Made by a program: the position numbers and the translations under genes. From contig CACGNN010000001.1 of assembly GCA_902574355.1 (NCBI GenBank), forward strand, positions 124,001 to 188,000: a stretch of 64,000 nucleotides of DNA, in the 5' to 3' direction. Positions within the stretch are counted from its first letter, which is position 1. Every line of letters begins with the position of its first letter. The notes beneath the pieces are model-generated. The model did not search any database. It had not been told where the DNA came from and saw only the letters and a program-made list of their open reading frames with translations. Shown here piece after piece: positions 42,778-47,815 of the stretch. The stretch is from an uncultured SAR86 cluster bacterium (GTDB lineage: Bacteria; Pseudomonadota; Gammaproteobacteria; Magnimaribacterales; Magnimaribacteraceae).

Positions 42778-42902
42778 TCTTTATATCTACTAATTTATGA
42801 ATTAAATTGATGGATACTCACATTTTATATTCTTTTATAAGAGAAGACTATTTGTTAATAAGACTCTGGTTAAATTACGAGGTTTTGCTAAAATTCTTAT
42901 AT

Positions 42903-42978
42903 TGCAAAGGGGTGGCTTCGGCCTGAGATCATTGAAACCCTTTGAACCTGATCCATACAATAATGGCGGAGGAATTGC
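42903..42978 (+). promoter_or_regulatory. TPP (thiamin pyrophosphate) riboswitch, THI element
   Basis: GGGGTGGC-TTCG-GCCTGAGA...AACCCTTTGAACCTGATCCATACAATAATGGCGGAGGAATTGC, matching the conserved GGGGUGnnn...CUGAGA...ACCCnUnGAACCUGAUCnGG...nGCG core; directly upstream of the TonB receptor. Confidence 0.93.
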
Positions 42979-45069
42979 ATGCTAAAACGTATATTTTTAT
43001 TTTTTCCAGTTCTTTTTATTCTACCTGCTCACACCGAAGCAATTGACGAAATTGTCGTAAATGGAGATTGGCGGGACACAATATTAAGTGAGGTTGACAG
43101 TAGTCTTATTCTTATAAATGATGAAGATATAAGAAAAAAACAACATAAGCATTTTGAGGATATAACTTATCTAGTACCAAATCTTAATTTTGCTGCTAGT
43201 GATTCAAGACCGAGGTATTTTCAGATCAGGGGAATTGGAGAACGCTCTGGCTATGAAGGAACCCCGAATTCTTCAGTAGGATTCTTGATTGATGACATAG
43301 ATTTTTCAGGTCAGGCAGGTATCGCTTCCGTATACGATATCGATCAAATCGAAGTTTATAGAGGCCCTCAAGGTTCCAGAATGGGAGCCAGCTCACTTGC
43401 CGGAATGATTTATATCAAGACCAAAGATCCTCAGGATTTATTTGAAGCAAACGGAGAAATAACCCTAGGTAACTATGGAAGGAATGACTTGAGTGCTTCA
43501 ATTAATATTCCTTTCTCTAAGAATTTAAAATCAAGAGTGAGTATAAGGAAAGAAGATTTCGATGGTTTCAGAGAGAATTTATTTTTAAAAAGAGATAATA
43601 CATCTAGAAAAGACGAGCAATCCCTTAGGTTCAAAACCAATTGGTTAATTAATGAAACCGCTTCTCTTGCTTTGGTATATTTTGATAATGATTTTGATGA
43701 TCCTGCAGACATATGGACAATTGATGGGTCATTAAATACTCTTTCAGATAGACCCGGAATGGATTCTCAAGATTCTAATGCTTTGGGTATCAATCTAGAG
43801 TTCATTAATCAATTTAATAGTCTAAAGGTTTTATATTCTGAAACTGATACAGATGTAGTTTTCAGTTACGATGCTGACTGGGGCAATGCGCAGTCACACT
43901 TTCCTTACATTTATGATTATTTTTCTGAAACCCTGAGAAAAAGGGAAACATCTAATTTCGAACTAAGACTTCTATCTAACGAATCTGTAACAACTTTTGG
44001 AGATCAATTCCAATGGATAGTTGGATTTTCATTTTATGAAATTGATGAATTAAATAATAGAAGAGATGACGGAGCTTATGGAGATCCAAATGATGGTTTT
44101 GGAACTTTCTATAGTGAATCGTTTTTCTCGAGTGATTACTCTTCAGAGAGTAAATCTATGTTTGGTAACTTAGACTACCCTATAAGCGACGCTTTAAAGT
44201 TATCGTTAGGCTTTAGATGGGAGGATTGGGAAGCAGATTATATAGACTCAAATAATGAATTATTCACACCCGATGATTCAATGAATGGAGGAAAAATATC
44301 CCTTATTAATTCTTTAGAAAATGATCTTAAATATTATGTAAGTGTTGCAAAGGGTTATAAGCAGGGTGGTTTTAATTTAGGAACTGGGGTAAGCAGCTCT
44401 TCATTAGTGCAAGCAATATCTTATTCACCTGAATACCTAACTAATTACGAGTTTGGAATAAATAAATACTTTATCTCTTCAAAAACATTTTTTGATTTAG
44501 TAATTTTTTATTCAGACAGAAGAGATCAACAAGTATTGTCATCAACTCAAGTTGACCCACAAGATCCAAATACATTCTTGTTTTTGACTAAGAATGCAGC
44601 TGAAGGTTTAAATTATGGAGCTGAGATAAGTCTAGATTCTGAAATTTCAGATAGATTCAATATGTTCCTTAACTTAGGAATACTTGAAACAGAAATAAGA
44701 AAATATCAATCAAGACCAGATCTAGAGGGAAGGGAGCAAGCACACGCACCCGACTATAGTTTTTCTGCAGGATTAAGTTGGGAAATATCAAATAATGTAG
44801 AGTTTTTATTGGACATCAATGGCAAGAGTGACTTTTATTACTCAGACTCACATAATAATTCTTCTGATGATTACATTCTTACAAATATGAATCTGGTATA
44901 TGAGAAAGAAAATATAAACTTGAACTTCTGGGTAAGAAATATATTTGACGAATATTATTCTCTAAGAGGGTTTTATTTTGGCAATGAGCCGCCAAGTTTT
45001 GAAGATACTTTATATGAACGTCATGGAGATCCGCGTAACTATGGAGTTACATTCCGCTATGACTTCTAG
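42979..45069 (+). CDS. TonB-dependent receptor, predicted thiamin/thiamin-precursor uptake
   Basis: Plug domain IDQIEVYRGPQGSRMGASSLAGMIYIKTKDP; C-terminal beta-strand YGVTFRYDF; riboswitch-controlled and followed by PnuC-family gene. Confidence 0.93.
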   Translation: MLKRIFLFFPVLFILPAHTEAIDEIVVNGDWRDTILSEVDSSLILINDEDIRKKQHKHFEDITYLVPNLNFAASDSRPRYFQIRGIGERSGYEGTPNSSVGFLIDDIDFSGQAGIASVYDIDQIEVYRGPQGSRMGASSLAGMIYIKTKDPQDLFEANGEITLGNYGRNDLSASINIPFSKNLKSRVSIRKEDFDGFRENLFLKRDNTSRKDEQSLRFKTNWLINETASLALVYFDNDFDDPADIWTIDGSLNTLSDRPGMDSQDSNALGINLEFINQFNSLKVLYSETDTDVVFSYDADWGNAQSHFPYIYDYFSETLRKRETSNFELRLLSNESVTTFGDQFQWIVGFSFYEIDELNNRRDDGAYGDPNDGFGTFYSESFFSSDYSSESKSMFGNLDYPISDALKLSLGFRWEDWEADYIDSNNELFTPDDSMNGGKISLINSLENDLKYYVSVAKGYKQGGFNLGTGVSSSSLVQAISYSPEYLTNYEFGINKYFISSKTFFDLVIFYSDRRDQQVLSSTQVDPQDPNTFLFLTKNAAEGLNYGAEISLDSEISDRFNMFLNLGILETEIRKYQSRPDLEGREQAHAPDYSFSAGLSWEISNNVEFLLDINGKSDFYYSDSHNNSSDDYILTNMNLVYEKENINLNFWVRNIFDEYYSLRGFYFGNEPPSFEDTLYERHGDPRNYGVTFRYDF

Positions 45070-45078
45070 TTAACATCT

Positions 45079-45639
45079 ATGGAAATTATTGCAGTTTCTT
45101 TAGCAATTATTTACCTCTTATTGGCAGTTAAGCAAAATATTCTATGCTGGCTAGCTGCCATACTAAGTTCATCAATATTTTTCTTTATTATGTATTCAGC
45201 AGGACTATACATGGAAGCTTATTTACAAATATTTTATATATTGATGGCCGTATATGGGTGGTCTCAATGGAGAGCAAAGGAATTACCTCTTGTTGTTGGC
45301 ACTTGGCAGCTAAGCAGTCATTTAAAAGCCTTAGGAATCATCTTATTCTTATCTCTAACATCCGGCTATATATTAGATAATTACACAGATGCAGCCCTAC
45401 CTTTTTTTGATGCTTTAACAACTTGGGGTGCTGTGGTGGCAACTTACATGGTAGCCAAGAAACTTATTGAGAACTGGATCTATTGGTTTGTAATTGACTT
45501 TATATCTGTCTTCTTATTTTTGTCGAGAGACTTATTTCTTACAGCTTTACTCTTCGCCGGTTATTTAGTAATTATTATTTTTGGCTACAGGGCCTGGAAA
45601 CTATCTATGCTGAAAACAAAAAAAGGGATTAACAATTAA
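45079..45639 (+). CDS. pnuT: PnuC/PnuT-family transporter, probable thiamin transporter
   Basis: Polytopic; NILCWLAAILSSSIFFFIMYSAGLYMEAYLQIFYILMAVYGWSQW and YWFVIDFISVFLFLSRDLFLTALLFAGYLVIIIFGYRAWK. Specificity inferred from the TPP riboswitch. Confidence 0.85.
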   Translation: MEIIAVSLAIIYLLLAVKQNILCWLAAILSSSIFFFIMYSAGLYMEAYLQIFYILMAVYGWSQWRAKELPLVVGTWQLSSHLKALGIILFLSLTSGYILDNYTDAALPFFDALTTWGAVVATYMVAKKLIENWIYWFVIDFISVFLFLSRDLFLTALLFAGYLVIIIFGYRAWKLSMLKTKKGINN

Positions 45640-45654
45640 TAGTTAATCCCTTTT
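45621..45654. terminator. Intrinsic terminator hairpin, 13-bp perfect stem, between convergent pnuT and katG
   Basis: AAAAGGGATTAAC-AATTAATA-GTTAATCCCTTTT followed by AGTTTTT. Confidence 0.85.

Positions 45655-45670: not shown

Positions 45671-47815
<2,145 letters not shown>

Follow-up and report, generated by a model that had tools for sequence, protein, structure and literature searches.

A TPP riboswitch aptamer that ends on the start codon of a putative thiamin-uptake operon in SAR86 bacteria

SAR86 is an abundant ocean bacterium. The group corresponds to the order Magnimaribacterales (PMC11582366), and it is described as a vitamin B1 auxotroph (PMC10881298, PMC12236431). The stretch of SAR86 DNA analysed here, called the window, is 64,000 nucleotides long. 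It contains a compact TPP riboswitch aptamer, followed directly by genes for a TonB-dependent receptor and a PnuC-family transporter, with 9 nt between the two open reading frames. The features of the locus are listed in Table 1.

Table 1. Positions of the riboswitch, operon and neighbouring features in the window.
Feature	Position	Strand	Basis
TPP riboswitch aptamer	42898..42991	+	RF00059 match, 60.9 bits, E 1.7e-9
P1 5' strand, TGCAA	42903..42907	+	Rfam alignment; covaries with partner strand
P1 3' strand, TTGCA; ends with the A of the ATG at 42979	42975..42979	+	Rfam alignment
P3 hairpin GGC-TTCG-GCC (stem GGC/GCC, loop TTCG)	42914..42923	+	Rfam alignment
Thi-box core CTGAGA, putative pyrimidine-binding side by analogy with known TPP aptamers	42924..42929	+	Invariant in 17 genus sequences
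P4-P5 arm, with the Shine-Dalgarno sequence on its 3' strand	42947..42972	+	Rfam alignment, pairing counts
Shine-Dalgarno GGAGG, 6 nt 5' of the ATG; AGG is the P4 3' strand	42968..42972	+	Sequence, pairing
TonB-dependent receptor, 696 aa, signal-peptide-like start, TonB-box-like DEIVV	42979..45069	+	PF00593 2.4e-26, PF07715 4.8e-12
PnuC-family inner-membrane transporter, 186 aa, read as PnuT	45079..45639	+	PF04973 5.3e-47
Possible terminator hairpin shared by pnuT and convergent katG	45621..45654	.	Pattern scan, near chance level

The initial annotation, made from the sequence alone, had described a THI element at this site. The match to RF00059 spans the full length of the model and exceeds its gathering score of 54.3 bits, and the Rfam model search finds no other TPP switch in the 1.44-Mb SAR86 genome. 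The finer details of that annotation are likewise borne out by the alignment. These are the P1 pairing that takes in the A of the start codon, the short P3 stem closed by a TTCG loop, and the placing of the Shine-Dalgarno sequence inside the 3' segment of the aptamer, where its AGG falls within P4. In SAR86 TPP aptamers, P3a is reduced or absent. An 8-nt direct repeat, TGCTAAAA, lies on both sides of the aptamer, at 42886 and 42980; at only 8 nt, it was taken as chance rather than as a functional element.

The matches of the first protein to the plug and barrel families, and of the second to PF04973, agree with the two-gene operon of a TonB receptor and a PnuT-type transporter that had been proposed. 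The transporter also matches the PnuC structure 4QTN (E 3e-4), and its relatives at 54-95% identity mostly come from named SAR86 cluster bacteria. NCBIfam names it PnuC (nicotinamide riboside) with a score above the cut-off, PnuT and PnuC not being separated by sequence; from the TPP switch and the operon context we infer that it is PnuT and that its substrate is thiamin. The nearest named families and solved relatives of the receptor are siderophore or colicin/pesticin receptors, all of them weak matches. A katG-like catalase-peroxidase gene, at 45671-47803 of the window, is convergent with pnuT and possibly shares the hairpin that lies between them.

A comparable locus occurs on a marine Bacteroidetes contig (L103, 2898-3940 and 6136-8485). 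There a weak match to the TPP switch precedes a TonB receptor, and a Pnu transporter lies close by; the gene after the transporter encodes a NadR-like kinase (AAA_28) that might act on thiamin. The receptor of the window has only plug-motif similarity to the receptor of that contig (E 0.014), and recent transfer of the operon from Bacteroidetes was rejected because the two receptors are too unlike.

The conservation of the locus was followed in 19 genomes of the genus and in 151 genomes of the order. Exactly one TPP switch is present in 17 of the 19 genus genomes; the exceptions are G009, in which the transporter is cut by a contig end, and G010, which is 50% complete. Across the order, 77 of the 151 genomes, spanning 12 genera, have exactly one TPP switch. 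The riboswitch-receptor-pnuT order, whose conservation the initial annotation had raised as a question, recurs throughout these genomes. A homologue of the window receptor lies 3' of the switch in all 77 loci. The transporter follows the receptor in each of the 72 loci whose contig is long enough; in the other five the contig ends first. In 61 of the 77 homologous loci P1 ends with the A of the ATG, a layout that is far from chance. Fourteen loci read TTGCATATG, with the AUG 2 nt further on, and two further loci deviate. In the divergent aptamers at L178, 6001-6098, and L198, 2002-2097, P1 no longer ends on the ATG (GGAGGGATGGCGTAT, GGAGGAATAGCATAATG).

Among 75 distinct sequences, P1 is standard-paired in 100% of cells, and two of its five pairs have changed on both sides. 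The middle pair, counted by locus, is C-G in 58, U-A in 16, and U-G in 3. The U-A state corresponds to about five changes on the receptor tree, and at least four of the middle-pair changes are forced by well-supported branches. For the aptamer structure as a whole, 96.8% of cells are paired, and changes on both sides of a pair occur in 77 cells of the aptamer alignment, compared with 21.3 in shuffles. The constant pairing of P1 and the covariation of two of its pairs show that it is kept by selection, even though its 3' strand doubles as the translation start. On the same receptor tree, the receptors of genera g4 and g5 of family f1 are placed among those of f2, and two g4 receptors are nested in g1; this placement hints that the operon was transferred inside SAR86, or that genomes were misfiled.

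The distance from P1 to the start codon is 42 nt in E. coli thiB, 46 nt in thiM, and 0 nt here. A pattern scan of the leader found no terminator-like site. The 25 nt upstream of the aptamer and the first receptor codons are poorly conserved among the 77 loci, so no conserved anti-P1 strand is left. With the AGG in P4, the A of the AUG in P1, and flanks that are not conserved, the earlier suggestion that the locus has no separate expression platform holds. With no gap, poorly conserved flanks, and no terminator-like site in the leader, the entry of the ribosome is probably blocked directly by the binding of TPP; most simply, the obstacle would be the ligand-bound aptamer itself. When the aptamer is enforced in folding, the AGG and the A of the AUG are both hidden.

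We propose that at high TPP the nascent leader would fold into the TPP aptamer, and that P4 and P1 would then enclose the Shine-Dalgarno sequence and the first base of the start codon, preventing the 30S subunit from initiating on the receptor mRNA. The expression of pnuT would probably be lowered together with that of the receptor, either because the two are translationally coupled or because the untranslated message is lost. At low TPP, P1 would open, and receptor and pnuT would both be made. In 38 loci there is overlap between the earliest possible pnuT start and the stop region of the receptor gene, and in most others that start lies within about 13 nt after it; the overlap would fit translational coupling. 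The ON state is not obvious, since in free folding of the window leader P1 is absent from the minimum-energy structure and the AGG of the Shine-Dalgarno sequence is paired in P4 even without P1.

The control of E. coli thiB/tbpA is also a TPP-OFF translational switch in which formation of P1 blocks initiation, but there an anti-P1 stem is used, and 42 nt separate P1 from the GUG (PMC11487190). In one review TPP switches are placed with the strand-exchange riboswitches, and direct occlusion is assigned to classes such as SAM-II and preQ1, with the remark that a single class may work in more than one way (PMC10907184). In SAM-II, preQ1-I, and SAM-III, the aptamer and the ribosome-binding site likewise form one unit, though the aptamers differ (PMC10907184). 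The SAR86 leader could be thought to use the usual strand exchange, with the leader or the start of the coding region supplying an anti-P1 strand that opens P1 in the absence of TPP, and with partly Rho-dependent termination, as in E. coli tbpA, where mRNA-level effects accompany the anti-P1 stem (PMC11487190). Alternative pairings are indeed available in free folding of the window, but a search of 42860-43000 revealed no inverted repeat that would compete with P1, and the poorly conserved flanks and the 0-nt gap, against 42-46 nt in E. coli, also weigh against such an exchange. We consider it unlikely, although it is the strongest of the alternative readings considered here. A mixed form, with untranslated mRNA lost to Rho, is possible. 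Direct Shine-Dalgarno sequestration by some THI elements was reportedly described by Rodionov and colleagues (2002), and we therefore do not claim that the layout is new in kind.

The gaps in the thiamin pathway rest on profile searches of a draft genome that is about 90% complete, and the 19 genus genomes agree with it. In these 19 genomes the searches gave zero matches to thiC and to thiamin pyrophosphokinase (TPK), and no match above the cut-off to thiG or thiE. The thiE model TIGR00693 has only a partial 19-bit match in the genome of the window, and the weak, partial thiE and thiG matches in the genus, at 18-20 bits, were dismissed as belonging to other barrel enzymes. With thiC, thiE, and thiG thus above the cut-off in none of the 19 genomes, the auxotrophy or salvage implied by the initial annotation is supported. 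ThiL is found in 16 of the 19 genomes, and the copy in the window's own genome scores 268 bits.

The annotation had left the cargo of the receptor as thiamin or a precursor. Intact thiamin, or a phosphate ester of it, agrees with these gaps; a precursor does not, because precursors cannot be joined without ThiE, which is absent here. Intact thiamin is therefore the likely cargo. The substrate of ThiL is thiamin monophosphate (TMP), so a thiamin kinase would be needed. No confident ThiK or other thiamin kinase was identified. The best candidate is an APH-family ThiK-like protein of 297 aa, encoded beside panB-panC on contig C3 of the window's own genome (L109, 1426-2319); its match to ThiK is weak, 42 bits against a cut-off of 299, and extends over most of the profile. 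A NadR-type kinase, such as that beside pnuT in the Bacteroidetes contig, was rejected as the missing enzyme, with no match above the cut-off in the genus. In the proposed route, thiamin would pass the outer membrane through the TonB-dependent receptor and the inner membrane through the PnuT-type protein. A kinase, possibly the APH protein, would make TMP, from which ThiL would then make TPP.

Import of a phosphate ester such as TMP, or of a precursor, in place of thiamin would be the simplest explanation of a ThiL without TPK or ThiE, and the failure to find a clear ThiK fits it as well. Precursors alone, however, would be useless without ThiE, the PnuT homologues of Bacteroidetes transport thiamin (PMC5613172), and the APH protein with its weak ThiK similarity is present. 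We regard import of such a compound as improbable, a little more so than strand exchange, and keep intact thiamin as the cargo.

The distribution of the operon was compared with that of ThiE in the 151 genomes of the order. A genome was scored as operon-positive when it had the switch or the transporter, and as ThiE-positive when it had a full-length match with E below 1e-16. The operon is present in 79 genomes and full-length ThiE in 57; none has both, and 15 have neither. Fisher's test of this exclusion gives 6e-28, a value that is descriptive only, as it ignores relatedness. Most of the ThiE matches score 95-133 bits, below the curated cut-off of 145; ThiE is the best family for all four matches examined, and ThiD adjoins two of them. 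At two loci checked in SAR86 genomes without the operon (L242, 4962-6364, and L248, 4980-6379), ThiE has ThiD and argC as neighbours.

Families f1, f2, and f4 each contain both states, as do the single genera g3 and g10; family f3 has the ThiE state only. From the presence of both states inside families and single genera, it follows that operon and ThiE were exchanged more than once. The zero overlap, together with both states in three families, makes SAR86 appear split into two B1 strategies. A reading in which the two genes encode a siderophore receptor and a conventional nicotinamide riboside transporter (PnuC), their TPP control being accidental, agrees with the NCBIfam equivalog and with the nearest families of the receptor, but is very improbable given that in 77 genomes from 12 genera the TPP switch is invariably accompanied by this gene pair, that the operon and ThiE are mutually exclusive, and that a NadR-type kinase has no match above the cut-off in the genus.

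We consider it highly probable that the locus is a TPP-controlled thiamin-uptake operon of B1-auxotrophic SAR86 and that it works by the whole mechanism set out above. With less assurance, but as the view that we favour, we propose that SAR86 has fixed a platform-free TPP switch acting by direct occlusion, in which the aptamer is also the translation start. The operon under its control would be an alternative to precursor salvage by ThiD and ThiE, exchanged several times, so that SAR86 populations would divide into importers and assemblers of the vitamin.

The pairing of an outer-membrane receptor, OMthi, with PnuT under a TPP switch is the standard thiamin uptake of Bacteroidetes, and B. thetaiotaomicron mutants in OMthi and PnuT need more thiamin (PMC5613172). 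The OMthi-pnuT-tnr3 system of Bacteroidetes (B. thetaiotaomicron BT2390, BT2396-2397) shares with the SAR86 locus the TPP switch and the TonB receptor and PnuT pair, usually in one operon (PMC5613172). The Bacteroidetes operon, however, includes a thiamin pyrophosphokinase, tnr3, whereas SAR86 lacks it and keeps ThiL; B. thetaiotaomicron also makes thiamin, unlike the auxotrophic SAR86. In 2024 two SAR86 clusters were reported to have a receptor, omr1, with a TPP (TDP) riboswitch nearby (PMC10881298); this is very probably the system described here. The accessible part of that report gives its presence only and does not mention PnuT, the fusion to the start codon, or the exclusion of ThiE. The parts of the system are thus already known; the conservation of the layout across the order and the exclusion of ThiE appear to be without an earlier report in the literature consulted.

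The aptamer fused to a start codon is a putative minimal natural thiamin-responsive translation switch, which may be usable as a sensor. SAR86 is commonly classed as a B1 auxotroph without further distinction; the exclusion between operon and ThiE suggests, rather, two B1 strategies in one order. The strategy of a given SAR86 would be readable from one locus, and this bears on models of vitamin exchange in surface seawater.
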